Source: Defluviitaleaceae bacterium (GTDB taxonomy: Bacteria; Bacillota; Clostridia; Lachnospirales; WRBF01). From it: DNA of 57,758 nt. The translations under genes were made by a program, and so were the position numbers. The stretch covers positions 1 through 57,758 of the forward strand of contig WRBF01000007.1 of the NCBI GenBank assembly GCA_009784685.1, written 5' to 3'. This document shows, one piece after another, positions 290 through 36,288 of the stretch (positions are counted from its first letter, which is position 1; the number at the start of each line of letters is the position of its first letter). Under the pieces are notes generated by a model. That model was not told the origin of the DNA. It made no database searches and worked only from the letters and a program-made list of their open reading frames with translations.

Positions 290-3200
290 TTATTGTGCCT
301 CAATAAATCGTTGCAAAATAGCTGCAAATTCTGCCCGGGTAACAGTTCCATTCGGAGCGATCGTTGTTAATGTACGCCCTGTTATAAGACCGTTTGCATT
401 TGCCCATTTCATAGCCTCTTGCGCCCAAGGCGATATGCTGTCTGAATCGGTAAAGTCTGGTGCTAATGAGCTGTCAAAGGCGACTTCGTCTATAAATTGC
501 GCATAGTTTTGCAGTATCACAGCGATTTGCTCACGAGTTACATTGTCATTTGACCCGAAAATGCCATTTCCATAGCCGCCTACAATGTCGTTTGTGCTAG
601 CCCATGCGACTGCTGACGAATACCATCGGTCGCTTGCTACATCATTGAAATTGCTGCTATTATTTGTAACAAGCGGAGAGCCTTCAAGCCTCCACAATAT
701 AGTGACAAGCATAGCACGGGTAAGGTTCATATCAGGTGAGAATTGTCCTGCACCGGTACCGTTCATCAAGTCGTTCGTAAACATAAATCTGACTGAATCA
801 TAGAACCAGTCGGCTTCATTCACATCAGTGAATGGTTTTGACCAAGACACGTCATTAGAATTTACCGGAAATTCAGCGAGTGGAACTGCAATATCAGGCA
901 TATCAATGAAGAATAAGGAGAAATAGTTGGTTGTGAAAACAAATCCTTCGAGATCACTATTGTATCTTGCGCCTGCGATCTCTCTGATTGTGTTATCAGT
1001 GGTCAGATTGAATACAGAGAGTAAGCTTGCATCCTCTCCTTCTATCAGCGTGTACGGTAGAATCACTGTGACAAGCCCGTATCCGAAATCTGAAATGCGG
1101 TCACTGCCTGCCGTAATTGTAAGTTGGAATAAGGTGTTTTCACCCACGATATCCCTTTGAGCCTCGGATAACTCATCTGCCGTCAGACTTCTTATGTCAA
1201 ACACCACGTTCTCATTCTCTCCGCTTTGCGCCACAATGCTTGTGAGTGCTGTGCTGTCGAAGGTCAGTGTTGCTATGCCGCTTTGTATCGTCAATACTAC
1301 ATCAGAGTTGTTGGCAATGTAGCCCAATGCGCTTCTTGGGATTGTCATTGATACGGATGCGGCATCAACTTTCTCAATATTCAGCCTGACTTCTCCTATC
1401 GCATCCTCGTTTTCATTTTCGAGCTCTTGTAAGACTTGCCCAAGAGCATCTGTTATTTGTGCTGTTAGAACTGATGCTGTAGCGTGCCTTCCTCTGATCT
1501 GTGGTGTTAAATTAATAATGGTGCTGACATCAGGGGTGATGATTGTTACGCCACCGCCGGATACTGCTGCGCTTACCAATGCATCTATCGCTTCACGCAA
1601 GGCATTTGCAGCTGCATCAATATCAGATTGCGGGACTACTGTTCTGTTGACTTCTCGCCTCGCCGCCGCTAAAGCTGTTTGCATTACCGCCCAAGAAGCA
1701 GGTGTGTAGTCTGCTTGGTTTAGCTCTTCTGCCCGTGCAATTTCTGACCTTAAAGCAGATCTGTTTGCTCCGAAGCTGCCTGTTCCCCAAGATGTAAGAT
1801 CTACTCCCAGATCGTATGTGTACAGCCAATGAAGAACATCGCCATCTTGAAGTTCATACAAAGATGATGAAAAGTCGGGGAATATGCCATTAACAACATA
1901 CATCCAGCCCGATAGCGGTCCGCCGTCAAATTCGCCCCAGTTATTTATAGCTTCTACATACATTCCTGCCCAAACAGCATGACCTGATGAGCGTACTTGT
2001 AAGCCGAGCTCATTTCTACGCAGAATACTGTAAGCTGTTTCTCCTGCATCTATATCAACATATCTGCCGGTTAAAAATTGCGTTGGGTCGCCAGATCTTG
2101 CATTTGGATTTTGTACACTAATGAAGATACGAGGTGGCGTTGGTTGTGTTCCGCCTCCGCCTCCCGTTAAAACCAAAGCATTTGTAGCTGCCGTTAGATT
2201 ATTTGACGCTTCATTTACTGCATTTTGTGTTGAGTTAGCATCGTCACGAACTTCTGTTGCCGTTGAAAGTGCTGTTTGCATGTTTCTCCAGCTTGCTGTT
2301 GTGTAATTTGCTTGAACACGCATTTCTGCCGCCGCAATTGCGGTGTTAAGTGCAGTTAAATCAGCATGGCGCATAAGGGCGTTTAATGCAAAGCTAAGAG
2401 CTCCAACTGCCGCATCAACTTCCAATTGTGTTGAATTGTTGTTATCAAATATCAACCTTGCATATGAAAGTGCTTCTTGCATAGATGCCCATGAATTTGG
2501 AGTATAGTTAGATTCTATGCGCTCGTCTGCCGCCGCTATAGCCGCATTAAGTGCTGTTCTATCAACCTCAATCTGGCCAGGTGCAAATGCATCAGCCATA
2601 TTATACAGCGGCAGCATGCCTTCTGTAAAACGCCAATATGCAACAAGAGCATAGACAGCCTGTTCTGTTGCCATTTGATCAACATTGCCTCCTAAAGGAT
2701 GTATAAATCCGCCTGTTTCTTCATCGAAAAATCTTAAAATAGTTGTAACAGGGTTGCCGTTTGGCATAATAAACCGCTCATCAAGCTGAGGGTCTATTCC
2801 CAAATCTGTAAGAGCAACAACTACTTGTGCTGCACTTTGGACGTTATCAGCCACTGTTCCAAAAACTGAAGAATTCCAACCGCCGTTATCAAGCTGGGTT
2901 CTTGAAAGCTCAGCTAACGCTCTTTGAATAGCATCTTCAACGCCGGGAAAATCTCGATGAGGTGCAAGTGCCTGTATTGCCATAGATGTCATATCCGGAT
3001 CAGCTGCTATGCCGGGGCTATGACCGGGACTATGATTGTTTAAATTCCAACCGCCGTTGTTCAACTGAACAGCCAAAACCCATTGGATACGCTCTGTAAT
3101 AGTAATTGGATTTGATGTGGTCGTGCCTCCAACCCATGTTCTGTCAGAAATCTCATAAGGTGCGTCCCAACCACGGGAATTTAATGCAATCAAATTCCAT

Positions 3201-6200
3201 ATCGGACCGTTTATGCCTTGCATTTCTCCCCACATTTGATTGCTGGTGGCGTTGGTGCGTTGACCAAATTGTGCTATTAGGTCAAAAGTTACTCCGTTGT
3301 GGGTAAAGTTTGATGCATCAATACCCAGTGATGTTAAAGCTGCCACAAGCCTAGAATTTTCAGTAGATTGCACTTGATGACCAAGCCTTACTTCATATCG
3401 ACCTATCGCCGGATTATACACACGATTAAGCGGGAATTGTCCGCCGCCGTTTGCTGTGCTGTTAGGATCAGTAACTATGCCTACATTTGTAAGGCGTTCG
3501 CCAATTTGATGAATATATGCTTCAAAGTATCCATACGGCACATCAAACCCGGAACGAGCCAACGCAAGCACTGCCCATTCTCCGCCGACAGAGCCAAATT
3601 GCGGTGCGGATATAGCTGAGACTATCCTGCTAAGACCTCGGTTCATAACTTCTTCCCAGTCCGGTTCTTGCGGCGCAAGTCTCTCGTCTAGGAGAGTAAT
3701 CACCGGAAGCGCACCAAATGAATACGGTCCAACCCCCACTGCCTGCATGTTTGCACCTACACCACCAAGCGGGATGTTGCGGTGTGCACCAATGTTCGAT
3801 CCCATTGAACCCGCACGAATGCGACCTTCCAATACGCCTGTTGATTCATCGGTTAATGTATACTGCACTGTAAACGTGCTTATTAAAGTTTGATATTGTA
3901 AGTTAGCCCTATTACTTTCGATAAACCCATCTGTGGTGTAATACCTAATTGCCGACCTTAGACTTGTACCGAACCCCGGGTTGTAAATTCCAGCAAGCTT
4001 CTCAATTGGTTCTGTAATGCCTCTAATGGTTATTTGGGCTGTGTCTCCCACTTCAAAATCTTCATAGGGTCTTGTCATGTTCAAAACCGTAACTTCAACG
4101 CCACGTGCCCTAATCACATGAAAATTCCGCATTTCACCATCTGAAACCTCAACAATATTACGTCCATCTCTAAGCTGTGCGGTAAAGCTGCCGTCACTGT
4201 TTGGATTAACTGTTGTCCATCCAATGCCCGGAGTACGAACTCTTACTGAGCTTCCACTCTGCGGAGCAAAGCTTAGTTCGCCGTAACCGGCACTCTTATC
4301 GAAATAAAAAGTATCAAAATCGTTGCGCCACTCAGAAAGGCCGGTGTTAATGCTTCCCATACCGCCTACATAAATCGGTATATACAGCACATTGCGTTCA
4401 TCTATTGCTGCATATGTTCTGGTTTGACCGCTGCGTACATATTCCAATGCCCCGAAAGTTATCCTAATGATGCTTAGCCCATATCCAGTAGCCGTTATTG
4501 CAAACCGTTCACGTCCAGGGACACCTATGCGGTCAACTGTAACGTTATTGCCTTCAACTACTTCGGCTCTAAACTCCGGCTCGATGAAATAATTTTCTGT
4601 AAAACCATGCATGGCTTGCCATACACGGAACGTATCAAGATTAAATGTTCCTCCCATTCTAAGGTTTACAGCACCTGTGTTATTAAGGTTTGTCAAGATA
4701 TTTCTGTCATCCCAAGCTGTGCTGCTGCTTCCGCTCCAGGAATGTGTCAAGGGTAGTTCTACATCTATTATTGTTCCATGTGAGCCTACTCTAATAAACT
4801 GTGCTCTCTTTGCGGTTTGACCGGGTATGTATACTTCAACATGTAAATCTGTGTTAACGGGCATTCTCGCTCGCCATATATCCCTTCCGGGTGCGTCTTC
4901 AGTGCGCTCATAATCAAGGATCATCTGGAAGCTCTCAAAAGCCGTAAAATGAATGTTTCCGGCGATACCCTTGCGGAATACACCGACAGTTGCGCCTTCC
5001 GGAACGCTGATAAAGGTTATGTCATATCCGTATGGAATCAGCGCATCTATTGCTGCAATAAGCCTTGCTGTTGCATTGTTAACATCTGCCTGTGCTGCCA
5101 CAGGGCTTAACATTTGTGCAGCAGCAAGAGCTGTTTGCATAAATGCCCAGCTTGCATGCGTATAGTCGGATTCGCTTAAGGCTTTAGCATTTGCTATTGC
5201 CTCATCTAAGACTTCTTTGTCCGCTACAGGAATATCTGATACATCAAGATTTCTTACTTCAGCGAAGTGTCGTCTAAAAGCCTCAAGTTCAAACCCACCG
5301 GTGGTGTTGTCACGCACATAAGCTACAGGTTGGTGGGTCCATCCTGTCCAAGTAGGATTAAACATTGAGTTCGCATTGGTTTGGTTATTGCTAAAATTTG
5401 GTGCGGTATCACCGTGGAATATTAAATACCTCAGCGATGGTGTGTTTTGAAAAAATGAAAATGATATACTGCTTGGACCAACAGTTTCAACGTTACCAAC
5501 CCAAGTTATTCTTTCAAGCGAAGGGTTATTCGAAAAGCCGCCTGTAGCGTTCCTTCCGGCCGGCATTATTATAGATTCAAGCTGCGACCACTGGGTAATA
5601 ATTGGCACAGCCCCTCCGGTAAGACCGGATAAATCCAGTTCAACCAAATAAGGACCAAGAGGAACTCTTATATTGGCACCCCAATTGAAAAAGCCTCCTG
5701 ATCCGGTTGGCAAGACTCCTGTTACTCTTAATCTTTCAACTACAGAATAGTCATAATCTCCATACGTCTGTCCAAATTCCTCAACTAAAATTGCGTTAAT
5801 TCTTGTGATAAAATCTAAAGGATTTTCAGGGGAATGAATCTCAAACCAAAAATTCTCCGGTAGATTTGTTTCCGGAACATATTCTCCCTGCAAGGTCAAA
5901 AGAGCGTTTGTCACTTGCTCCGTCGTTGCTAATGGATTGATGATTACATCCAAAGCTGCTTGTTTTGAGTCAAGAGTTGCACCGGGTATAAACAAGCTGC
6001 GTATTAGATCGGTTTTATTCGTATGGTGGTAGATTGGCTCAACCCATCCGGATGGCACGCCAAGGTCGGATCCATGCCCGTACACGGTGAACTGCCATCT
6101 GATTACATCACCATTTTTTAGATCCCATGACCCGGCACCGGCATCAATAACAACGTGATTAACCGTTATCTTCCAGCCTGACGAGCTTGTAAAGTCGAAT

Positions 6201-6838
6201 TCCCCAAGGTTTCCACCCTCAACCGCATCATTCCATTGGAAGATGTCTACCCATGGAGTCCTGTTTGCAAGATAGCTAGGAAGATTTACAAAACCTTTGT
6301 TAACGCCATGCAGACTAGATAAATAAAACCCAGAAAGTCCATCGGTCAGTTCCAATAGGTTAGTATCAGCGTTCCAAGTTGTTGACAAAGCATTGGCACG
6401 TATACCGACCTGGTTTAATGCCTCAACTGTGGCATGTGCCGCAGTCAGTCCTAAGGGCAGCGTTATAGCCGTTGGTTCAACATAAAATCCATGACCAAGA
6501 TTATAGCCTTCAAAGGTAATGAAGACAGTAATCGTTTCCTCTGATAACGGAAGTATCTGCGCTTCAAGAGGCTCAGCATTGATTTCGCCTTCTTCTAAGC
6601 CTTCGTCGCTTTCATCCTCGTACTCACCATTTTCTTCCGTTATTTCTTTGTCGTAATCATTTCCCGTAAAATCTTTGTCTGTCTCATCTTCCGAGCCGGA
6701 GTTTTCAATTTCATAGCTGACATCATATGTAGGTGTATCGTTGTAATCCGCAAGCACAGGCGTAGGAACAATCCCAATAACCATAGTAAATGTCAGTAAC
6801 ATAGCAAGTAAGCGCATACTTATTTTTCTTTTTTTCAA
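290..6838 (-). CDS. S-layer-anchored transcobalamin-like surface protein
   Basis: A 2182-residue secreted protein. The start is taken as TTG at 6838, seven bases after AGGGAG, giving a classical signal peptide (MKKRK, then a hydrophobic stretch ending VLA near residue 30). Order by rough residue: acidic linker 35-100; DUF4430 (transcobalamin C-terminal-like) 103-262; leucine-rich-repeat-like region 320-520; FIVAR helix repeat 538-600; beta-rich region; alpha/alpha-toroid (prenyltransferase/transcobalamin-like) 1060-1413 with repeats of the form NGGW followed by a TSMAIQAL-like helix; two FIVAR repeats 1423-1557; second DUF4430 1569-1680; fourth FIVAR 1690-1757; three S-layer homology domains 1998-2182. 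Toroid plus DUF4430 is the architecture of transcobalamin and intrinsic factor. The B12 riboswitch upstream supports a corrinoid-binding role, which remains inferred. The S-layer homology domains should hold it on pyruvylated wall polymer. A read-through frame runs upstream to 6967 but has no ribosome binding site there. Confidence 0.85.
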   Translation of the reverse strand: MKKRKISMRLLAMLLTFTMVIGIVPTPVLADYNDTPTYDVSYEIENSGSEDETDKDFTGNDYDKEITEENGEYEDESDEGLEEGEINAEPLEAQILPLSEETITVFITFEGYNLGHGFYVEPTAITLPLGLTAAHATVEALNQVGIRANALSTTWNADTNLLELTDGLSGFYLSSLHGVNKGFVNLPSYLANRTPWVDIFQWNDAVEGGNLGEFDFTSSSGWKITVNHVVIDAGAGSWDLKNGDVIRWQFTVYGHGSDLGVPSGWVEPIYHHTNKTDLIRSLFIPGATLDSKQAALDVIINPLATTEQVTNALLTLQGEYVPETNLPENFWFEIHSPENPLDFITRINAILVEEFGQTYGDYDYSVVERLRVTGVLPTGSGGFFNWGANIRVPLGPYLVELDLSGLTGGAVPIITQWSQLESIIMPAGRNATGGFSNNPSLERITWVGNVETVGPSSISFSFFQNTPSLRYLIFHGDTAPNFSNNQTNANSMFNPTWTGWTHQPVAYVRDNTTGGFELEAFRRHFAEVRNLDVSDIPVADKEVLDEAIANAKALSESDYTHASWAFMQTALAAAQMLSPVAAQADVNNATARLIAAIDALIPYGYDITFISVPEGATVGVFRKGIAGNIHFTAFESFQMILDYERTEDAPGRDIWRARMPVNTDLHVEVYIPGQTAKRAQFIRVGSHGTIIDVELPLTHSWSGSSSTAWDDRNILTNLNNTGAVNLRMGGTFNLDTFRVWQAMHGFTENYFIEPEFRAEVVEGNNVTVDRIGVPGRERFAITATGYGLSIIRITFGALEYVRSGQTRTYAAIDERNVLYIPIYVGGMGSINTGLSEWRNDFDTFYFDKSAGYGELSFAPQSGSSVRVRTPGIGWTTVNPNSDGSFTAQLRDGRNIVEVSDGEMRNFHVIRARGVEVTVLNMTRPYEDFEVGDTAQITIRGITEPIEKLAGIYNPGFGTSLRSAIRYYTTDGFIESNRANLQYQTLISTFTVQYTLTDESTGVLEGRIRAGSMGSNIGAHRNIPLGGVGANMQAVGVGPYSFGALPVITLLDERLAPQEPDWEEVMNRGLSRIVSAISAPQFGSVGGEWAVLALARSGFDVPYGYFEAYIHQIGERLTNVGIVTDPNSTANGGGQFPLNRVYNPAIGRYEVRLGHQVQSTENSRLVAALTSLGIDASNFTHNGVTFDLIAQFGQRTNATSNQMWGEMQGINGPIWNLIALNSRGWDAPYEISDRTWVGGTTTSNPITITERIQWVLAVQLNNGGWNLNNHSPGHSPGIAADPDMTSMAIQALAPHRDFPGVEDAIQRALAELSRTQLDNGGWNSSVFGTVADNVQSAAQVVVALTDLGIDPQLDERFIMPNGNPVTTILRFFDEETGGFIHPLGGNVDQMATEQAVYALVAYWRFTEGMLPLYNMADAFAPGQIEVDRTALNAAIAAADERIESNYTPNSWASMQEALSYARLIFDNNNSTQLEVDAAVGALSFALNALMRHADLTALNTAIAAAEMRVQANYTTASWRNMQTALSTATEVRDDANSTQNAVNEASNNLTAATNALVLTGGGGGTQPTPPRIFISVQNPNARSGDPTQFLTGRYVDIDAGETAYSILRRNELGLQVRSSGHAVWAGMYVEAINNWGEFDGGPLSGWMYVVNGIFPDFSSSLYELQDGDVLHWLYTYDLGVDLTSWGTGSFGANRSALRSEIARAEELNQADYTPASWAVMQTALAAARREVNRTVVPQSDIDAAANALREAIDALVSAAVSGGGVTIITPDVSTIINLTPQIRGRHATASVLTAQITDALGQVLQELENENEDAIGEVRLNIEKVDAASVSMTIPRSALGYIANNSDVVLTIQSGIATLTFDSTALTSIVAQSGENENVVFDIRSLTADELSEAQRDIVGENTLFQLTITAGSDRISDFGYGLVTVILPYTLIEGEDASLLSVFNLTTDNTIREIAGARYNSDLEGFVFTTNYFSLFFIDMPDIAVPLAEFPVNSNDVSWSKPFTDVNEADWFYDSVRFMFTNDLMNGTGAGQFSPDMNLTRAMLVTILWRLEGSPLVTNNSSNFNDVASDRWYSSAVAWASTNDIVGGYGNGIFGSNDNVTREQIAVILQNYAQFIDEVAFDSSLAPDFTDSDSISPWAQEAMKWANANGLITGRTLTTIAPNGTVTRAEFAAILQRFIEAQ

Positions 6839-6956
6839 AATTAAGCTCCCTTCTCTTCGCTGTGACTTTTTTGTCACAGTCCAATTAGATTTTTTGCTTG
6901 CATCAATGTTGATTGCTTTTCTATGGCACCTCCTTCTCAAGCAGATTCCCGGGAAA

Positions 6957-6993
6957 TAAAAAAACACGCTTTGTCAAAAATAACGAAGCGTGT
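6957..6993 (-). terminator. Riboswitch-controlled intrinsic terminator
   Basis: A 10-bp stem (6964-6973 paired with 6984-6993) is followed on the minus strand by a run of seven U. It lies between the cobalamin aptamer and the surface-protein gene. This is the expected OFF platform: B12-bound aptamer allows the terminator to form and the gene is not transcribed. Confidence 0.85.
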
Positions 6994-7051
6994 AAAATGC
7001 ATATATGCACTAAATACAAAAAAACATTGCTCCGTCCGGGGAAGCTAATGA

Positions 7052-7182
7052 TGTATCACAGCGTATCTGACTTATCGATAATGGTACAAACCACACCGCT
7101 TCACAGTGACCCGCTCGTAGGGACTTTCACCCTGTTCCGCATCCACACTAAAGCTCAAAAGCTCGTTTTAGTGAGTGATACA
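7052..7182 (-). promoter_or_regulatory. Cobalamin (B12) riboswitch aptamer
   Basis: Read on the minus strand, this segment opens and closes with a perfect 8-bp P1 stem (TGTATCAC at 7182-7175, GTGATACA at 7059-7052). The core has GGAACAGGGTGAAAGTCCC (about 7138-7120), then GCGGGTCACTGTGA, then the B12-box sequence AAGTCAGATACGC (7073-7061). These match the conserved core of the AdoCbl riboswitch class (Rfam RF00174) as I know it; no covariance search was run. It lies about 50 bases after a strong promoter and about 60 bases before an intrinsic terminator, so it most likely acts by transcription attenuation on the surface-protein gene. Confidence 0.9.
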
Positions 7183-7201
7183 ATCTATCTGCTCTGTTGG
7201 T

Positions 7202-7230
7202 AGTATATGTTATGTTTTTGATATTGTCAA
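7202..7230 (-). promoter_or_regulatory. Sigma-A promoter of the B12-regulated gene
   Basis: Minus-strand TTGACA (7230-7225) and TATACT (7207-7202) are separated by exactly 17 bases. Transcription would start about 10 bases before the riboswitch P1 region. Confidence 0.8.
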
Positions 7231-14854: not shown

Positions 14855-15202
14855 GGGGATGTAATGGTTTCGACGGGGATTTAGATTACAAGGATAGCCA
14901 TTCGCAGAGGCAGCTGCGTTAACAATGTCAACCTTTTAAAAAGAAAAGACAATAATAATTTAGCATTTGCGGCTTAGTAAAGCCGTCGTCGGCACAGGGC
15001 ATCCTGTCACCTTGTTAACCGGCGTCGAAAAGACAGGGCACTTTTTTATCAAAGCTTTGAGATAAAAAAAGAACCTATGAAGCTACCGCTTCATAATGCG
15101 TGTCGGTTTGCATTATGAAGCGGGAATTTTGAAGACCGACTGTAATGGGAGAAGTTTTTGTAATAGGATTTTCGGACAGGGGTTCGACTCCCCTCATCTC
15201 CA
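14855..15202 (+). ncRNA. ssrA: Transfer-messenger RNA (tmRNA)
   Basis: The 5' end GGGGATGTAATGGTTTCGAC and 3' end GGTTCGACTCCCCTCATCTCCA are diagnostic. GGGGATG pairs with CATCTCC in the acceptor stem, with A as discriminator; CCA is not encoded. The tag reading frame near 14950-14980 ends in DNNNLAFAA followed by TAG, a typical clostridial degradation tag with the AA terminus read by ClpXP/ClpCP. Pseudoknot arms are visible, for example CCGCTTCATAATG and CATTATGAAGCGG. Length of about 348 is normal. Confidence 0.96.
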
Positions 15203-15533
15203 TAGAGAAAAACCTCGAAAGCAGATTTTATTATCAAAATTTATTTTCGAGAATTTATGTAAGTTCGGTGTGTTTTACTCGATTCCCGATATTTAATGTT
15301 GGTGCACCCAAAGCGAAAAGTCTAAAAGGAAGTCTATCAAATATAACCTCAATTGTTTTGTGCTTGTTGTTATTAATTGCTTTAGTTGTTTTAAGGGGGA
15401 TTGATAGTGTGATGTTTAGTGCCACAACTGATTTTGCGATTCACTTGACTGTTAGCGTTGGGGGTCGGGTAAAGCACATCTGAGTTAGATAGTTTCAAAA
15501 ATGAAAAGTGGTGTCTATAATTTGGGACTGGTC
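15203..15533. other. Non-coding stretch after ssrA
   Basis: No convincing gene is seen. A CTCGAAA/TTTCGAG inverted repeat (about 15213-15253) may be the tmRNA 3' processing or termination hairpin, though its U tract is poor. The remaining sequence has open frames without ribosome binding sites. It may be decayed accessory DNA next to the tmRNA 3' end. Confidence 0.4.
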
Positions 15534-21423: not shown

Positions 21424-21882
21424 TTAACTCCAAACAAATTCTTCTCCGCGGGTTTCAAGAACGGTTAAAGATGAAAGAAATACGCTTCTGAATGCAAGAC
21501 CATCTATTTCGACTATCCCAAATGTTCCGACAACTTCTACCCAATCATCATTTTCCGGGAAATCGGCATCATTATCCTCCCACACTACCATAAATCCACC
21601 AAATCCATCATCACCGCAGCAACCGGGACCTCTTCTAAAAACAAAAGCAAGAGGGTCTCCATCTCCGAAATATTCTAATTTTTCAAACACTCCTTCGTAT
21701 CGGACAGTTCTGCCTATGTAATGGTCATAATTGCCAATAATATCCATTATTTGTGTCATGAATAGCCTTTCTCCGATTTCAACATAAACTGAATTTTGGT
21801 TTCCATCTCCATTTTCATTGCATCCGGATAACAAAACCGTAAGAATTACTGTGCTCATAATCAAAAGCAACACCTTTTTCAT
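21424..21882 (-). CDS. Lipoprotein with YcgQ-like C-terminal domain, zinc operon
   Basis: A 152-residue lipoprotein: signal peptide MKKVLLLIMSTVILTVLLSGC with lipobox LSGC (Cys about 21). The mature part (MDIIGNYDHYIGRTVRYEGVF, then GPGCCGDDGFGGFMV, then DDWVEVVGTFG) resembles the C-terminal domain of the YcgQ/TIGR03943 family, including the paired Cys and the W-V-x-V-x-G strand. That family is linked to zinc or metal-stress permeases in Bacillus. It overlaps znuB by 4 bases (ATGA), so it is translated with the zinc transporter. A surface metal-binding or chaperone role is plausible but not shown. Confidence 0.7.
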   Translation of the reverse strand: MKKVLLLIMSTVILTVLLSGCNENGDGNQNSVYVEIGERLFMTQIMDIIGNYDHYIGRTVRYEGVFEKLEYFGDGDPLAFVFRRGPGCCGDDGFGGFMVVWEDNDADFPENDDWVEVVGTFGIVEIDGLAFRSVFLSSLTVLETRGEEFVWS

Positions 21883-22718
21883 GCTCTGACCCCCCTTTTT
21901 ATAAACGGCATAACTAAGCTTATTGCCCAAAATATTAAAAACGCTGAAAGGTTAACAAGAACAACGCTTGCGCCTGTTGGAGTAGGGTACATGAACGAAA
22001 CAGTTACACCTACGAAAAAGCATATTACTGATATTACGGCGGCGCATATAGTAACTGATTTAAATCTTTTGCATAACCTCATTGAAGTCAGAGCAGGGAA
22101 GATTATTAAACTTGAAATAAGCAGTGCACCCATCATTCTCATGCCAAGTACGATAGTTATAGCCGTTAAAAATGCGATAAGCATATTATATGTTCTGCTT
22201 TTAACGCCTGTTGCTCTTGTAAATGTTTCATCAAATGTTATCGCAAAAATCTTGTTATAGAATAGTACAAAAAGAGCTAAAACAACAACGGCGAGGGCGA
22301 TGCTTAACCACATATCATCTCGGCTTACAGCTAAAATGCTGCCGAACATGTAATTGCAGACATCTGTGTTCATCCCGGTTGTCATTGATATTATGACAGT
22401 ACCTATTGCAAGTGAACTTGTAGAAATCAGAGCAATTGCGGCATCACCTTTTATTTTGCTGTTTTCGCTTATTCTTAGCAATAAAAATGCTGCTAAAACT
22501 ACAATCGGTATTGAAACGGTAAGGGGTGCAAGGTTAAGAGCAGTTGCTACTGCTAAAGTCCCGAAGCCTACATGAGAAAGCCCGTCACCAATCATTGAAT
22601 AACGCTTCAGCACAAGACTTACCCCTAAAAGTGCCGCACAGAGTGAAACAAGCGTGCCTACTATAACTGTGCGCACAAGAAAAGAAAATGAAAACATTTC
22701 TATTAATAAATCAATCAT
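21879..22718 (-). CDS. znuB: Zinc ABC transporter permease ZnuB
   Basis: A 279-residue ABC-3 family permease with about eight membrane helices. The family region RYSMIGDGLSHVGFGTLAVA is present near residues 39-58, as is the cytoplasmic coupling segment near GMRMMGALLISSLIIFPAL. The family carries zinc or manganese; zinc is favoured by the Fur-type regulator and His-rich binding protein in the operon. Start and stop overlap both neighbours by 4 bases (ATGA), showing tight translational coupling. Confidence 0.93.
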   Translation of the reverse strand: MIDLLIEMFSFSFLVRTVIVGTLVSLCAALLGVSLVLKRYSMIGDGLSHVGFGTLAVATALNLAPLTVSIPIVVLAAFLLLRISENSKIKGDAAIALISTSSLAIGTVIISMTTGMNTDVCNYMFGSILAVSRDDMWLSIALAVVVLALFVLFYNKIFAITFDETFTRATGVKSRTYNMLIAFLTAITIVLGMRMMGALLISSLIIFPALTSMRLCKRFKSVTICAAVISVICFFVGVTVSFMYPTPTGASVVLVNLSAFLIFWAISLVMPFIKRGVRA

Positions 22719-23425
22719 TTGTTATCCTCCGATCCAAGAAATCCAACTCCTGCGCCGGATTTCACGTAACCTTCTGTTTCACCAAAGAACACTTGTTCAT
22801 TTTTTAAATGTAAGATATGAGAAGCATACTTAACAGCACTATGAATATCATGAGAGACCATTATTATCGTGATGCCTGATTCTTTGTTGATCCTATAAAT
22901 TTGCTTATATAAATCCTGGGTAACGATGGGGTCAAGCCCTGCAACAGGTTCGTCTAAAAGCAACAGCTTCTGTGTTGCGCAAAGAGCTCTGGCCAACAGC
23001 ACTCTCTGCTGCTGACCCCCTGATAACTCTCTGTAACATCTCTTGCTAAGATTTTGAATGTCAAGCATTTCCATGTTTTCCTTAGCGGAAGCTTTGTCGG
23101 CTTTTGAGTAAAACGGACGTATTCCGCGTTGACTAAGCCTGCCGGATAATACGATTTCATAAGCACTGGCAGGAAAATCCCTTTGCACAGCGGTTTGCTG
23201 AGGCAAATATCCAATTTCGTTTGCAAGTAGGCCGTTGCCCATTATTATTTCCCCACTCATCGGTTGTTTGAGGTTTAAAAGCCCTTTAATAAGCGTGCTC
23301 TTTCCCGAACCGTTTTCCCCGACAATACACAAATAGTCTCCTTCATTCACTGTGAAATTCAAACCGCTTACTACAGGGTTACCTTCGTAGGCAAAGGATA
23401 CATCTTTACAATTTATTAAAGCCAT
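22715..23425 (-). CDS. znuC: Zinc ABC transporter ATPase ZnuC
   Basis: A 236-residue ABC ATPase with Walker A GENGSGKST (residues about 37-45), Q-loop LPQQ, signature LSGGQQQRVLLARAL, Walker B KLLLLDEPVAGLD and the switch His in MVSHDIH. It powers the ZnuB permease at the inner membrane face. It lies one base after the znuA stop and overlaps znuB by 4 bases. Confidence 0.94.
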   Translation of the reverse strand: MALINCKDVSFAYEGNPVVSGLNFTVNEGDYLCIVGENGSGKSTLIKGLLNLKQPMSGEIIMGNGLLANEIGYLPQQTAVQRDFPASAYEIVLSGRLSQRGIRPFYSKADKASAKENMEMLDIQNLSKRCYRELSGGQQQRVLLARALCATQKLLLLDEPVAGLDPIVTQDLYKQIYRINKESGITIIMVSHDIHSAVKYASHILHLKNEQVFFGETEGYVKSGAGVGFLGSEDNK

Positions 23426-23426
23426 T

Positions 23427-24674
23427 TTAGTGCAACGCCTCCCTTAAGGCTGACACATTAGCTGTCATTATGTCTATATAACTGATCCCCGCCAAATAGT
23501 CATCTCTTGTTATATTATGTGCTGAATGCAATTCAAGAACTCTTGCTCCTGTTTCAGAACTTATCGTGTAAGCTAGCCTTCGATTAGACAGCTCAACATG
23601 GAATATTACAGGTAATTCAAGCTCGTTAACTCTGTTTATCAAAAACGTAACAGTTGCTGCGCTTGGCTCGGTATCAGTTGAACATCCCGGAAATGCAGCA
23701 TAGTAATCAAGCCCGTATGCATCAACAAAATAACGGAATGGGAATTTATCTCCAAATGCTATAGTGTTACGAACGGCGTTATCAACAACATCCTGAAATG
23801 CTGCATCGAGTTCTTCAAGCTGCAAAAGGTATGCCGCCAGATTAGCTTCATAATAATAAGCATTATCAGGATCAAGCTCTGAAAGAACTCTTGTAATTTC
23901 TTGAACAATCAGCATTACATTTCTTGGAGAAGTCCAAACATGCTCATCAAACATAGGTGTGTAATGTTCGTGATGGTGATGTTCATGATCGTGGTGGTGG
24001 TCTTCGTCATCATGATCATGATGATGGTGGTGTTCATGATCTTCGTCGTCATGGTCGTGATGATGGAGGTGTTCATGGTCTTCATCATCGTGGTCATGAT
24101 GATGGTGATGTCCGTGCTCTTCGTCATCATGATCGTGGTGGTGATGCTCGTGATCTTCATCTTCATGCTCGTGATGATGGTGATGTTCATGATCATCTTC
24201 GTCATGTTCGTGATCGTGGCTATGTCCGTGGTGATGGTGATGTCCATGACTGTGGTCATGATCATGCTCCATACCTTCAACAATTTCTTTTTCAACTAAT
24301 TCAACGGCATCCATAAGCGTAATTACTCTCATATCAGGTGCATCAACAGCATCTAAAATTCTGTATACCCACAAGTCCATGTCTCCGCCAATATGCATAA
24401 ACACATCTGAATTCATAATTGTAATCATATCTCGAGGTGATGGTTGAAAAGCGTGGCTGTCTTGACCTGGAGCAAGCAGCATTGTAACATTAGCTCTTGT
24501 TCCTGCGATTTCCCTCGCAAAGTCGAAAGGTGCAAATATAGTAGCAACTATATTAAGCATTTCGCCCTGAACATCAATTTGCACATCGATTTGCTCTTCA
24601 GGAGTGGTTGTGCAGCCGAATAATGATACTGAAAGCAGCAAGGCAGACATAATGATTAAAGCAAATTTTTTCAT
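23427..24674 (-). CDS. znuA: Zinc-binding lipoprotein ZnuA with giant His-rich loop
   Basis: A 415-residue cluster-9 (ZnuA/TroA) solute-binding lipoprotein, lipobox LFGC with Cys21. Fold markers are PGQDSHAFQPSPRDM (metal His74) and N-terminal APFDFAREIAG, then DEHVWTSPRNVM after the loop, and GDKFPFRYFVDAYGL. Residues 136-237 form an insertion with about 55 His plus Asp/Glu, built partly from four 13-residue repeats of the type HHHDHDDEDHEHx. ZnuA loops are usually 20-40 residues. The loop likely gathers zinc at the surface. The start ATG at 24674 follows GGGGG; a GTG-type extension to 24689 reaches back to the zur stop. Confidence 0.93.
   Translation of the reverse strand: MKKFALIIMSALLLSVSLFGCTTTPEEQIDVQIDVQGEMLNIVATIFAPFDFAREIAGTRANVTMLLAPGQDSHAFQPSPRDMITIMNSDVFMHIGGDMDLWVYRILDAVDAPDMRVITLMDAVELVEKEIVEGMEHDHDHSHGHHHHHGHSHDHEHDEDDHEHHHHHEHEDEDHEHHHHDHDDEEHGHHHHHDHDDEDHEHLHHHDHDDEDHEHHHHHDHDDEDHHHDHEHHHHEHYTPMFDEHVWTSPRNVMLIVQEITRVLSELDPDNAYYYEANLAAYLLQLEELDAAFQDVVDNAVRNTIAFGDKFPFRYFVDAYGLDYYAAFPGCSTDTEPSAATVTFLINRVNELELPVIFHVELSNRRLAYTISSETGARVLELHSAHNITRDDYLAGISYIDIMTANVSALREALH
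23990..24152 (-). repeat. 39-bp tandem repeats encoding the ZnuA His array
   Basis: Four imperfect 39-base units encode the 13-residue His/Asp/Glu repeat of ZnuA. Slippage or unequal recombination at such repeats would change loop length between strains. Confidence 0.7.
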
Positions 24675-24689
24675 AAATAAGACCCCCAT

Positions 24690-25169
24690 TTAAATGCAGC
24701 AACACCGATTTATGGTATTGTCTGTGAAATCTGAGCTTTTTGACTGATTTTTATCAAGCTTTGGGAAACAGCTCATACACTTCCCGTGCAATGTGGTTTT
24801 AACAACATTAATCCAAAAAGCATGTTCGTTATGAATATGCCGACTGAATTCATTAAGTAAGTCACATTGCAAATGAATTAACTCCCCACAGTCTTCACAT
24901 TTAAGATGAAGATGTTCATGGCAATCTTCAGAATTATCAACATATTGAAAGCAGGCACTTGATAAATTGTCGGTAACATATTTTCGCAATTTACCACATT
25001 CAGTTAATTTATCAAGATGTCTGTAAACTGTTGCCTTGCCTATGGGAGTATCTGAGCTTTCAAAATGTTTTAAGATTTCTGCAGCAATAACATGTCTGTT
25101 ACCAAGCGAAATTATGTATTCTAAAATGGATTCACTTTGTTTTGTGCTATAAGTTGTTTTGCGTGACAT
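24690..25169 (-). CDS. zur: Fur-family zinc regulator (Zur-like)
   Basis: A 159-residue Fur-family repressor. The winged-helix recognition segment is TPIGKATVYRHLDKL (41-55). Metal-site features are HEHLHLKCEDC (His84/86/88 and C91-x-x-C94) and C131-x-x-C134, the structural zinc site. An unusual tail ends CCCI and adds three Cys. Position as first gene of a znuACB operon points to zinc sensing rather than iron. It probably represses its own operon. Confidence 0.88.
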   Translation of the reverse strand: MSRKTTYSTKQSESILEYIISLGNRHVIAAEILKHFESSDTPIGKATVYRHLDKLTECGKLRKYVTDNLSSACFQYVDNSEDCHEHLHLKCEDCGELIHLQCDLLNEFSRHIHNEHAFWINVVKTTLHGKCMSCFPKLDKNQSKSSDFTDNTINRCCCI

Positions 25170-31749: not shown

Positions 31750-32622
31750 TTAGCTGATTATACTTTTTTCCAAATAATCAATTACTGCCATATCTATTTT
31801 TCCATCGCTTAGAAGTCTTTCTTCAAAATTATCATGTCCGCAATAGCTAATGTATGCTTTCTGAGTGGAATCATCAAACAGCCCGTTAATCTCGCCTGAA
31901 TAGAACCCTTTTTTTGTTAGAGCAGTTTGAATACGAAGACCGATTTCTTTGTCAACTACTTTGACATCTTTAGGTAAGGTGTTGCCGAAGTAAAGCCTGT
32001 GCATGTATAAAAGGTCTTTGAGTTTTTCAATGGGCAAAGGGTCATCGTCAACACGAAGGTCGATCATTCTATCGTTATACCCGCCATAACTTCCGCCTTC
32101 CTTTACAACTAAAAGCCCGGCAGCTTGCATTCCACGCTTATCACCACCAGCTTCTTGACCTGCGGAAAGTGCTTCAACCAGCCGCTCGGGAAGCGGCATA
32201 TCTTTATTTTTCAGAAATGAGTCACTTATGTTTTTAACGACGGCTTCTCCTGCTAGAATGTTGCCTTGACAGCAATAGCTTTCGCCTACAATATGCCCTG
32301 CCCATGAATTGCATCCTTTACCTGTGAATGCGGCAGCGTTTCCGTTTTTATCAACAATTCCAACCTGCCTTGCATTGTTGTCAGAATCTAATGCAAGCAG
32401 CGCATCTAATGTCTTTTGAGCGGAGTAGCCCTTTTCTAAGAGCTTCAAACCAAGTTCGCCATAGTCAAGATTCGCAAATGATTGTGTTGCAATAGCCCCT
32501 GCTGATGCCTTCGCCCATGAGACAACTGATGCACATGCCAAAAACTTAGATTGTACAGCAATCCCGAATTCACCGGTTTTTTGATCCTTTGCTACTATTG
32601 AGAATGTGTTTATTTGCCGCAT
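31750..32622 (-). CDS. DUF1028 (Ntn-hydrolase-like) protein with peptidoglycan-binding-like tail
   Basis: A 290-residue protein. Residues 1-210 form a DUF1028 domain (TFSIVAKDQKTGEFGIAVQSKFLACASVV, then ATQSFANLDYGELGLKLL, then GKGCNSWAGH), an N-terminal-nucleophile-hydrolase-like fold of unknown substrate. The C-terminal roughly 70 residues (GLRIQTALTKKGFYSGEINGLFDDSTQKAY) resemble a PG_binding_1 repeat, known in a subset of DUF1028 proteins. ATG at 32622 follows AAGGTGATG. It ends the group with the proline-racemase-family and ornithine-cyclodeaminase-like genes, which suggests a role in that amino-acid pathway. Confidence 0.83.
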   Translation of the reverse strand: MRQINTFSIVAKDQKTGEFGIAVQSKFLACASVVSWAKASAGAIATQSFANLDYGELGLKLLEKGYSAQKTLDALLALDSDNNARQVGIVDKNGNAAAFTGKGCNSWAGHIVGESYCCQGNILAGEAVVKNISDSFLKNKDMPLPERLVEALSAGQEAGGDKRGMQAAGLLVVKEGGSYGGYNDRMIDLRVDDDPLPIEKLKDLLYMHRLYFGNTLPKDVKVVDKEIGLRIQTALTKKGFYSGEINGLFDDSTQKAYISYCGHDNFEERLLSDGKIDMAVIDYLEKSIIS

Positions 32623-32648
32623 TTTATCATCACCTTGTATTTGAGATA

Positions 32649-33674
32649 CTAATAACCACAAATCCTAAACCCTTCTGTAAGCGGATCTTCAGGATCTAAA
32701 ACCAAATTGTTAAACCCTGTTATATAGGCAGTTCCGCTTACTTCTGTAAGAACCGCAGGGTATTTTCCTTCATTAACCTTTCCAATTACTTTGCTTTCAA
32801 ACGGAGTATTGATTATGCTTTTGTTTATAAGCAAATCATCTTCTTGCATAATCCCTTTATGCACTAAAAGAGCAGTACGCCCGCCTGTACCGGTTCCGGT
32901 AGGGCATCTGTCAATCTGCCCCTCGGCAAATATACATACGTTGTTTGAAATAAGGGTTTTGCCTTCTCGCTTAACCGGGTCGCAAATAATAGTTCCGTAT
33001 AGCCAAGTAATCCCTTTTTCTGTTGGATGATGGAATTCTCCTTCGGCGTCCCAAACTTTGCGCTTAATTTCCATGCCTCGCTTAACAAGTTCTTCGGAAT
33101 GGTCAGGATCAACTTTTAAGCCAAGTTTTTCAGCATCAACATATACATAAAAAGCGCCGCAGTAAACTATGTCGGCTGTAACCGTTCCTATCCCATCAAC
33201 TTCAACGCTGATATTTTCTTTGTAAACGAAACAGGGTACATTTTGGAATCGTACTCGCAAAACTTTATCATTTTCTACGTCCGCAAAAGCGGTAATTCGC
33301 CCAGCAGGTGAATCTATTTTAAGTACATTAACCCCCTCTTTAGCAATGACGATACCTGTTTCAAGTGCAACTTTTGTAACCGCTATAATCCCATGTCCAC
33401 ACATGGAAGAAAGACCTTCATTATGAGTAAACAGAACACCGAAATCCCCATCAGGAGTGACCGGCGGGGTTAAAATGCAGCCATACATACCGGAATGTCC
33501 ACGTGGCTCAAGCATAAGCATTTTGCGTAAACCGTCATAATGCTCGTTAACATATTTACGCTTTTCTAAAATACTTTCTCCGGGAATAGGCGGAAAACCT
33601 GATGTAATAATACGTAAAGGTTCACCACCGGTATGAGCATCAATGCAGGTAATGTAGTTCTTAAAATTAATCAT
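32649..33674 (-). CDS. Proline racemase family; probable trans-3-hydroxy-L-proline dehydratase
   Basis: A 341-residue member of the proline racemase/hydroxyproline epimerase family. The first catalytic Cys is present (SSMCGHG, residue about 92). The second catalytic Cys of true racemases (DRSPCGTGT) is replaced by Thr in DRCPTGTGT (about residue 254). Cys plus Thr is the signature of trans-3-hydroxy-L-proline dehydratase, which makes delta-1-pyrroline-2-carboxylate. The neighbouring ornithine-cyclodeaminase-like protein could reduce that product to L-proline, which strengthens the assignment. The Cys two residues earlier (DRC) is unusual. GGGGAGG precedes the ATG. Confidence 0.85.
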   Translation of the reverse strand: MINFKNYITCIDAHTGGEPLRIITSGFPPIPGESILEKRKYVNEHYDGLRKMLMLEPRGHSGMYGCILTPPVTPDGDFGVLFTHNEGLSSMCGHGIIAVTKVALETGIVIAKEGVNVLKIDSPAGRITAFADVENDKVLRVRFQNVPCFVYKENISVEVDGIGTVTADIVYCGAFYVYVDAEKLGLKVDPDHSEELVKRGMEIKRKVWDAEGEFHHPTEKGITWLYGTIICDPVKREGKTLISNNVCIFAEGQIDRCPTGTGTGGRTALLVHKGIMQEDDLLINKSIINTPFESKVIGKVNEGKYPAVLTEVSGTAYITGFNNLVLDPEDPLTEGFRICGY

Positions 33675-33690
33675 GTTTAAACCTCCCCAT

Positions 33691-34665
33691 TTAAAATTCT
33701 ACTTCTTGCCCCAGACCTAATTTAACAGCTTCTTCATATATAAACTGAGAAATAACCAAGTCAAAAAGCCCCATGCCCACTGATTTAAAATAGGTTGTTT
33801 GACCAACAACAGGCAAAGGTCTTTGATCCTCTGCCAACCACTCACCAACAAACTTTACTCGGTCTTCGCTCAGAAGTCCGTCATGGATAGGCTGTGATAA
33901 ATCCCCGCTTTCTTCCATTGCAAAAGGTAATTCTGTGTAAACACAGTCAACCAAGTTCCATATTGCATTCGGCAGCTCTCGCATATGCGGCTTGTATGAA
34001 CCTATAGCAACAAAACATTTGCCCTGCAATAAATCTTCATTATCAGGCACAACAGGAGAGGTAGCGGGGGTCGCTGTGATTATTATTTCACTTTCTTCAA
34101 GCAGCTGTTCAACTGTAGCGCAGATATGAACTTCGATAGGTTTATCCGGCAGCGATTGCTTTAGCCTCTTTACGAAACAATCTAAATCTTGGACAAATGG
34201 ATCAAACAAATAAACATTCTGTATATTTCTGGCTGAAGCCGCATAAATAGCTTGATAGAACCCTTGTGGGCCTGCGCCGATTATTCCAACATTTTTACAG
34301 TCTTTACGAGAGAAATATCTTATTCCTACCCCGCCTACTGCACCGGTTCTTATTGCAGTTAAATATCCGGCATCTAAAATAGCTTTTGTTTTTCCATTTT
34401 TGTGATTGTTTAGAACCATTAATCCATCAATATAAGGATGTCCCTTAGAAGGGTTTTCTGGGAACAACGTCAAACATTTTGTGCCAAAACATCCTGATAT
34501 AAAGCATGGCATGTACAAAAGCGTATTATTCTCATGTGTTATAACCGGTCTTTCCGGCATATAAAAATTACCGCTTTGAAAAATGCGATAAGCATCTTCA
34601 ACCTTATCCATCACTTTGTTGTAGGTTATTGTTTTGCTCATATCACTTTCATTTAATATCAACAT
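33691..34665 (-). CDS. Ornithine cyclodeaminase/mu-crystallin family; probable pyrroline-2-carboxylate reductase
   Basis: A 324-residue NAD(P)-binding protein of the OCD/mu-crystallin family. The dinucleotide motif is NVGIIGAGPQGFYQ near residues 124-137. Also present are the family Lys/Arg region (AGYLTAIRTGAVGG) and TATPATSPVV. Members include ornithine cyclodeaminase, alanine dehydrogenase and delta-1-pyrroline-2-carboxylate reductase. Next to a trans-3-hydroxy-L-proline dehydratase-like gene, the reductase activity is most likely. It lies 16 bases before that gene, behind a GGGGG ribosome binding site. Confidence 0.82.
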   Translation of the reverse strand: MLILNESDMSKTITYNKVMDKVEDAYRIFQSGNFYMPERPVITHENNTLLYMPCFISGCFGTKCLTLFPENPSKGHPYIDGLMVLNNHKNGKTKAILDAGYLTAIRTGAVGGVGIRYFSRKDCKNVGIIGAGPQGFYQAIYAASARNIQNVYLFDPFVQDLDCFVKRLKQSLPDKPIEVHICATVEQLLEESEIIITATPATSPVVPDNEDLLQGKCFVAIGSYKPHMRELPNAIWNLVDCVYTELPFAMEESGDLSQPIHDGLLSEDRVKFVGEWLAEDQRPLPVVGQTTYFKSVGMGLFDLVISQFIYEEAVKLGLGQEVEF

Positions 34666-34691
34666 CTGAATTACGCCCCCTTTAAAGTCTT

Positions 34692-36242
34692 TTATATCGC
34701 ATTAAAACGTTCTAGCATTTCTAAACTTGTTTTTGTGGTTGATAGACCACCAAGCCCTGTACATCTTAACTCATGAGGGATTGATCGCCCAACTGAATCA
34801 AGCGCAGAAATTGTTTCGTCAAGCGGTATTACAACATCAAACCCGGAAACAGCCATATTTGCGCTTGCTACAGCGTTAAATGCCGCTAATATATTTTTAC
34901 CAAGACATGGAACCTCAACTTTGTTACCGACAGGGTCACAAACTAGCCCCAATATGTTTTGCAATGCCATGGATGCCGCCCCAAGGCATGTTTTTACAGA
35001 ACCGCCTGAAATTTCAGCAACCACTGCCGCAGCCATTCCTGACCCGACACCGCATTCAGCTTGACACCCGCAAACTTCTGCTGCAAATGTTGAATGATGT
35101 GCGATAATAACGCCTATTAAACCGGAAGAGAGTAGGGCATGTGCTATCTTTTCGTTGCTTAGGTTTAACTCTTTTTTAAGAGCAAAAAGGCATCCGCTTA
35201 TACATCCGCAAGAACCAGCGGTTGGTGCAGCAACAAATACACCCATTGATGTTTTAATATCCATAAATCTCGTTACATATTTGATAATATTCTTATTAAA
35301 ACTACCGCCAATTACATTGTCATTCATTTCAATAAGATGTGATTGATTTTGAAGTATCCGGTCTTTTACTTCGCTGCTGCTAGTGGCTTCGATTGACATT
35401 TCAAGAATTTTTACAATATCATTCATTTTGCTAATAATCGCATCTACAGAAAGCCCGCTTCTTTCACTTTCATACAAAACAGCAAGTTCGTAAAGTGACA
35501 TATTGCTTCCTTTTGCGTAACAATATATCTCCTTTGCTGTAATGAACGGAACTTTAGGGTCAATTTGCGACATAACAGGCAAGATAGGGTGCAGTTGTAC
35601 TATTTCTGAGTTAATAGAAATGAAATCAAACGCCAGTTCTTCTTTTGATTTTACATTAATAAGGGACTTTTCGTCTTTATGTGATAGGTTGATAATATAA
35701 TCATGTTTTAGCTCACAATTAATTTTATGAATTATAGATTTTGAATCTGAATCATCGCACATAATAAGCGTTTCAAAAAAACCGCCGTCTACTGATATAT
35801 TAAACCCCATATAATCAGTAATTTCTATCATACCGCCGCCTACGGATAAAGCAGTTAAATGATATAGTTTATTATCAGATGAGACAAACTCTATGTAATA
35901 TGCGTTAGGGTGTCCTTCACCTATTTCTTTTACCTCGAATATGCAGTCAATTCCTGCTTCTTTTGTATATTCGTAAGCATCGGGAATCCTTTTGTCATCA
36001 GTTTCAAATCCCAATATCCCTGCAAGTAAACCTATATCAGATCCTTGGCTTTTATATGTAGTAGCAAGGGAGCTTTTAGAATCGAACGAGAATTTGACCT
36101 TCTTGACATTTTTATTGTAGGCAAGCTGTCTTACCACATTTCCAATTCTAACTGATGCGGCTGTATGTGAACTTGAATGACCTATCATAACAGGTCCGAT
36201 TACATCATTAAAAATACTTGGATACTGCTTAATGTCAATCAT
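34692..36242 (-). CDS. Single-chain Fe-S L-serine dehydratase-like enzyme
   Basis: A 516-residue protein fusing the beta (residues 1-200) and alpha (about 240-516) parts of iron-sulfur L-serine ammonia-lyase, which turns serine into pyruvate and ammonia. The beta part has GPVMIGHSSSHTAASVRIG. The alpha part has APTAGSCGCISGCL, VCGCQAECGVGSGMAAA and LGLVCDPVGNKVEVPCLGKN, giving the Cys residues for the [4Fe-4S] cluster. The last motif reads CLGKN where typical enzymes have CIERN, so substrate preference may differ. ATG at 36242 has GGGG six bases before; an in-frame ATG at 36254 has no site. It is upstream of the hydroxyproline-type genes and likely co-transcribed with them. Confidence 0.85.
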   Translation of the reverse strand: MIDIKQYPSIFNDVIGPVMIGHSSSHTAASVRIGNVVRQLAYNKNVKKVKFSFDSKSSLATTYKSQGSDIGLLAGILGFETDDKRIPDAYEYTKEAGIDCIFEVKEIGEGHPNAYYIEFVSSDNKLYHLTALSVGGGMIEITDYMGFNISVDGGFFETLIMCDDSDSKSIIHKINCELKHDYIINLSHKDEKSLINVKSKEELAFDFISINSEIVQLHPILPVMSQIDPKVPFITAKEIYCYAKGSNMSLYELAVLYESERSGLSVDAIISKMNDIVKILEMSIEATSSSEVKDRILQNQSHLIEMNDNVIGGSFNKNIIKYVTRFMDIKTSMGVFVAAPTAGSCGCISGCLFALKKELNLSNEKIAHALLSSGLIGVIIAHHSTFAAEVCGCQAECGVGSGMAAAVVAEISGGSVKTCLGAASMALQNILGLVCDPVGNKVEVPCLGKNILAAFNAVASANMAVSGFDVVIPLDETISALDSVGRSIPHELRCTGLGGLSTTKTSLEMLERFNAI

Positions 36243-36288
36243 CTCCGTCCCCATTAGTTATCTATTGTATTGCAAGGATAATGCGGTA

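Follow-up and report, generated by a model that had tools for sequence, protein, structure and literature searches.

The gathering of vitamin B12 (cobalamin) at the surface of Gram-positive bacteria is poorly known. A locus at one end of contig WRBF01000007.1, from the genome of a Defluviitaleaceae bacterium (GCA_009784685.1), raises the question of whether it could be carried out by a wall-anchored protein whose gene is governed by a cobalamin riboswitch. This contig, C7 of an assembly of 1.53 Mb that is 77% complete, was analysed over its whole length of 57,758 nt and is hereafter called the window. On its minus strand, a strong promoter (7230-7202) is followed by some 360 bases of leader and then by a gene of 2182 codons (290-6838). 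A first-pass annotation had read this unit as a surface corrinoid receptor under a B12 switch, and both the regulation and the fold of one domain now support that overall reading computationally. In our judgement, it is highly likely that the gene encodes a wall-anchored corrinoid-capture protein, as predicted, and that it is controlled by an OFF-type cobalamin riboswitch allowing expression when B12 is short.

The RNA of the leader

The aptamer is closed by helix P1, in which TGTATCAC (7182-7175) pairs with GTGATACA (7059-7052) on the minus strand; this pairing sets the limits of the element, which had been annotated exactly. P1 lies outside both covariance models used here, and in relatives its sequence varies while the pairing is kept, as judged by eye. 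The conserved core of cobalamin riboswitches (GGTGAAA..TCC, CACTGTGA and a B12-box) is present: the minus strand reads GGTGAAAGTCC, with P4, at 7131-7121, and the aptamer also holds CACTGTGA and the B12-box-like AAGTCAGATAC. Promoter and aptamer-core pattern combined occur once in the window and in none of 100 shuffles.

The core pattern was found five times in 116 genomes of the order, the match in the window included; two of the five lie in a single genome (G026), both upstream of DUF4430 genes. Further copies were located with toroid homologues as a guide. A first covariance model (R1) was built from seven leaders and, over 295 genomes, found matches in 28, among them a second copy in the Defluviitaleaceae genome. 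A second model (R2) was built from 11 leaders of other genomes, both copies of the Defluviitaleaceae genome being excluded; it matches the window at 7142-7026 (minus strand) with 116.4 bits (E 3.8e-26) and scores 115.8 bits on the second copy. Helices P3 to P6 and P13 show covariation. In an alignment of 31 matches, itself fitted to the structure, 93.5% of the cells pair and 18 of 20 pairs display compensatory change; neither value is attained by any of 500 shuffles, and sliding the partners by one to three columns reduces pairing to 33-53%. When the seven seed leaders are simply aligned with MAFFT, compensatory change remains in 7 of 20 pairs, again with 0 of 500 shuffles as good. A chance pattern was considered and ruled out by this covariation, by the rarity of the aptamer (7 of 391 genomes of the class) and by its gene context.

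That context was taken from both sides. Among 19 non-seed matches with fetched neighbourhoods, the RNA precedes DUF4430 or toroid genes in 14 cases, nrdJ in three, a btuFCD-like operon in one and an unrelated gene in one; "btuFCD-like" is our own reading, the binding protein of that locus (L099) matching BtuF only below cut-off. Conversely, 80 toroid loci were picked from GTDB genomes by protein alone and 22 of them scanned with Rfam: RF00174, the canonical cobalamin riboswitch, lies near the toroid gene in 21 of the 22, mostly upstream and on the same strand. In the nearest relative (L111), whose toroid is 58% identical, RF00174 scores 115.6 bits. Toroid homologues also occur in named isolates of Paenibacillus and Flavonifractor. 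In L171 and L114, RF00174 and R1 overlap on one and the same RNA, so that there is a gradual passage from the variant to the canonical family.

Covariation, the neighbouring genes and the occurrence of canonical RF00174 at homologous loci thus support, at the level of sequence, the assignment of the window RNA to the cobalamin riboswitch group (Rfam clan CL00101) as a divergent but real member; the regulatory part of the first-pass annotation survives in this form, and we infer that the RNA senses cobalamin and turns the gene off. The variant resembles RF00174 and RF01482 in core letters, helix order and the platform of P13 and terminator, but differs from them by a mostly simple hairpin P6, by an L5/L13 pairing of CGGG with CCCG and by scores below the Rfam cut-off. 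The isolate Pseudoflavonifractor phocaeensis An858 (L190:5026-8758) would allow a comparison of both types within a single strain: there a canonical RF00174 faces the large toroid gene on the minus strand and adjoins a variant-type aptamer on the plus strand.

How the switch may operate

In most variant leaders P13 is followed by a terminator. The P13 loop CCCCG could, by complementarity, form a kissing interaction with the aptamer loop L5 (GCGGG). The L5-L13 letters (CGGG against CCCG) are complementary in most rows and mostly invariant, with a matching two-site change in a few leaders such as L190, which by eye would suit a preserved contact. In the window, the 5' arm of the terminator (6989-6982) can also pair over 8 base pairs with 7036-7029, the 3' arm of P13; this antiterminator duplex amounts to -11.8 kcal/mol and is equalled by 6 of 1000 shuffles. 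Across 15 leaders, nine reach the 2.5% level and six fall short of it, two of these without any sign of an antiterminator. When leaders were given each other's terminator arms, the mean was -11.3 kcal/mol, against -12.5 kcal/mol with their own; with so little contrast, the claim of an antiterminator rests on the shuffles.

At low intracellular B12, the P13 3' arm would pair with the terminator 5' arm and transcription would go on; with B12 bound, P13 and the L5-L13 kissing loop would form, leaving the terminator to fold, to end transcription and to keep the gene off. The leaders of L006, L104, L093 and L096 showed no strong terminator of the usual type. In L006:12617-12744, L104:13789-13907 and L093:210-328, a ribosome binding site directly follows P13, which suggests from sequence that these three aptamers act by translational control.

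The predicted surface protein

Promoter, aptamer, U-tract terminator and protein were all found where the first-pass annotation had placed them (Table 1). The open reading frame of 2225 codons, as listed from the sequence, spans 290-6967 with a GTG start at 6967. This start was rejected, its position falling inside the terminator. The likely start codon is the TTG at 6838, preferred because AGAGAAGGGAG sits at the right distance 5' of it and because the GTG lies within the terminator; it yields the 2182 residues annotated earlier.

Table 1. Features of the probably riboswitch-controlled unit in the window
Feature	Position	Strand	Evidence
Sigma-70 type promoter TTGACA-17-TATACT, annotated earlier as a consensus promoter	7202..7230	-	11/12 consensus bases matched
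Variant cobalamin riboswitch aptamer, P1 to P6 region	7052..7182	-	Sequence; covariance model; covariation
P13 hairpin	7029..7045	-	Alignment and pair counts; loop CCCCG complementary to aptamer L5 GCGGG
Intrinsic terminator with U-tract	6958..6993	-	Hairpin 6993-6964, -14.2 kcal/mol
Coding sequence, predicted secreted surface protein of 2182 residues	290..6838	-	TTG start behind AGAGAAGGGAG at 6856-6846
Putative signal peptide LKKRKISMRLLAMLLTFTMVIGIVPTPVLA	6749..6838	-	Read by eye from the sequence
First DUF4430 (transcobalamin C-terminal-like), partial profile match	6086..6208	-	E 9.6e-9
Alpha/alpha toroid	2648..3652	-	Family profile; AlphaFold2 pLDDT 86.7, pTM 0.89; Foldseek toroids
FIVAR, best of four stretches	2174..2356	-	Pfam
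Second DUF4430, modelled as transcobalamin-type beta-grasp	1787..2140	-	Profile; model; structure search
Three S-layer homology (SLH) domains	314..841	-	Pfam

Pfam recognizes three SLH domains (1.8e-31), four FIVAR stretches (5.8e-22) and two DUF4430 domains (2.9e-19) in this protein, in agreement with the DUF4430 and SLH domains already annotated. The model of the second DUF4430 domain (pLDDT 95.8) has 19 matching chains with E values no higher than 1.9e-3, which belong to transcobalamin, intrinsic factor and haptocorrin, with the exception of two from 3U7Z, an uncharacterised protein of Ruminococcus gnavus; the next match appears only at E 0.23. Modelling therefore supports, for this DUF4430 domain, the fold of the beta domain found in transcobalamin and intrinsic factor, and the surface protein is predicted to contain a domain of this type. 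The toroid occupies residues 1106-1440 of the 2225-codon frame, and its model is matched by Foldseek to farnesyltransferase beta, GH105 and squalene-hopene cyclase at TM values of about 0.45. On these models, it is the beta domain that provides specific evidence of likeness to B12 carriers, the toroid being compatible with it.

The protein would be exported and held on the wall by its SLH domains. Consistent with such anchoring, the Defluviitaleaceae genome carries a CsaB-type gene of the pyruvyl-transferase family (a family-level match) in addition to the three SLH domains encoded here. The toroid and DUF4430 domains would then hold corrinoids in much the same way as transcobalamin does with its two domains.

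Partner genes in relatives

In the relative L006 the genes stand in a row: the riboswitch is followed by a DUF4430-SLH protein, a toroid protein, a membrane DUF4430 protein, EcfT, a fused EcfA and an S component. Compared with solved structures, the S component has a single significant match, to the B12 transporter ECF-CbrT (6FNP, E 8e-7). Similar gene orders were found in L041, L050, L103, L104, L106, L107, L096 and L093. We infer from this arrangement that corrinoids bound at the surface would be passed on to the second toroid and to the membrane DUF4430 protein, and then to a CbrT-type ECF transporter. These partner genes sit in one operon in relatives; in the Defluviitaleaceae bacterium they would lie beyond the end of the contig.

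A second copy upstream of nrdJ

The second copy of the variant riboswitch in the Defluviitaleaceae genome (G000:C5:19525-19644, plus strand, equivalent to L091:7526-7645) lies 245 bases upstream of nrdJ (L091:7890-10826); there too the terminator 5' arm can pair with P13. The same link between variant riboswitch and nrdJ recurs in L092 and L102. NrdJ passes the NCBIfam cut-offs as an adenosylcobalamin-dependent ribonucleotide reductase. The class III reductase NrdD was not found in this incomplete genome, class I not having been sought. If NrdJ were the sole reductase, DNA synthesis in this organism would depend on B12. Repression by B12 of a gene for a B12-dependent enzyme would be odd. A B12 riboswitch ahead of such a gene is unusual, not unheard of: the riboswitch of Veillonella mutA has been tested (PMC9600662). 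In Propionibacterium acnes, the switch is found on nrdAB and nrdDG and none on nrdRJ (PMC3848588).

Weighing the alternatives

Several results weigh against a corrinoid-capture protein under a cobalamin riboswitch. At its gathering cut-off Rfam gives no match for the window RNA, for which the best riboswitch match with relaxed filters is RF01482 at 16.7 bits (cut-off 50, E 1.3); the RF00174 match proposed as a check in the first-pass annotation was thus not obtained, and at whole-genome scale RF00174 has no match in the Defluviitaleaceae assembly. A verdict of no riboswitch drawn from Rfam alone is overturned because the dedicated covariance model matches this RNA. On the protein side, the annotated likeness to transcobalamin holds for the DUF4430 fold, and an alpha/alpha toroid is indeed present, but the toroid is generic: transcobalamin is not among the best 50 of its 705 structural matches, and sequence-profile searches against solved structures gave no significant transcobalamin chain. 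Finally, the contig ends 289 bases past the stop codon, before downstream transporter genes could appear; neither a second toroid gene nor another DUF4430 gene was found in the 77% complete genome, and a search for EcfT there gave only a weak EcfT-like match. If the contig broke within the operon, failure to find the remainder is expected.

These results leave room for other explanations. We consider it unlikely that the protein is an adhesin or a scavenger of some other ligand, such as a polysaccharide or another tetrapyrrole, for which B12 would only signal the timing of expression. Adhesins often contain FIVAR and SLH domains, the FIVAR stretches here are similar to ones in secreted glycosidases and proteases, and the toroid matches are not specific to B12 carriers; nevertheless, the structural matches of DUF4430 are nearly all cobalamin carriers, a CbrT-like transporter belongs to the operon of a relative and 21 of the 22 toroid loci scanned bear a B12 riboswitch. 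It is scarcely credible that the toroid is a surface enzyme akin to squalene-hopene cyclases, prenyltransferases or GH105, in spite of its top profile and structure matches to squalene-hopene cyclases, farnesyltransferase beta and GH105: the DxDD motif of cyclases is not kept, the corresponding stretch reading DPDMT, DADIT, DPAIT or DVDAT in relatives, the protein is predicted to be secreted, its gene context is B12 uptake and the N-terminal domain of transcobalamin is likewise an alpha/alpha toroid (PMC1796856). An RNA related to cobalamin riboswitches could also sense another ligand, as its scores far under the Rfam cut-offs and kissing-loop letters unlike the canonical ones might indicate; this is very improbable given the retained core, the overlap of variant and canonical models in L171 and L114, and the presence of nrdJ and a btuFCD-like operon among the targets.

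Relation to known systems

Burroughs et al. 2007 described transcobalamin-like SLBB proteins of bacteria that contain toroids and FIVAR and are encoded in operons alongside CbiO/CbiQ-like ABC genes; they predicted that Gram-positive bacteria scavenge B12 with SLBB-toroid proteins at the surface, and proposed a transfer to animals (PMC1796856). The functional idea of the first-pass annotation had therefore been anticipated. The words riboswitch, S-layer and SLH are absent from the main text of that paper (PMC1796856), and no experimental test of a bacterial SLBB-toroid B12 scavenger was found in the literature searched, which left subscription journals mostly outside. As far as checked, what is new is the link to a riboswitch, an RNA variant that Rfam does not pick up, a single-chain form with an SLH anchor, and the match to CbrT. 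With relatives selected on protein alone showing the riboswitch link, and a CbrT-like transporter gene sharing the operon, the 2007 prediction becomes sharply testable.

The protein described here shares with those of Burroughs et al. the toroid, the transcobalamin-type beta-grasp, FIVAR, secretion and predicted B12 scavenging, but carries an SLH anchor and unites both domain types and the FIVARs in one chain of 2182 residues. Human transcobalamin and intrinsic factor likewise combine the beta-domain fold and an alpha/alpha toroid in the same chain; in contrast to them, the present protein has FIVAR domains between the two parts, a toroid without specific match, a wall anchor and corrinoid binding that is predicted only. 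BtuG of Bacteroides also captures B12 at the surface, as is predicted here, and is encoded in B12-riboswitch loci, but it belongs to Gram-negative cells, where as a lipoprotein it works together with BtuB, and the study concerned found its homologues in Bacteroidetes only (PMC6143338). The counterpart of ECF-CbrT (PMC5997447) is the S component of L006, such CbrT-like components being seen in relatives only and not assembled in the Defluviitaleaceae genome.

More broadly, and tentatively enough that we stop short of favouring it, many Bacillota may operate a B12 relay across their thick wall, composed of a giant wall-bound toroid/DUF4430 catcher, a small toroid carrier, a DUF4430 receiver held in the membrane and an ECF importer of the CbrT type, with B12 riboswitches controlling each of them. 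The present lineage would have a compact variant of the riboswitch, its kissing loop altered, which controls nrdJ as well, and the relay would be a bacterial counterpart, perhaps the source, of animal B12 carriers. The system bears on the origin of these carriers and on competition for B12 in the gut.

Other genes in the window

At 21879-25169 (minus strand) lies an operon for ABC-type metal uptake, which includes a Fur-type regulator and a binding protein very rich in histidine; by eye it appears to be an ordinary zinc uptake cluster. Genes at 31750-36254 (minus strand), also named by eye, are DUF1028-like, proline racemase-like, ornithine cyclodeaminase-like and L-serine dehydratase-like. 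The transfer-messenger RNA (tmRNA) at 14855-15205 (plus strand, 170.5 bits) is the sole match in the window at the Rfam gathering cut-off.

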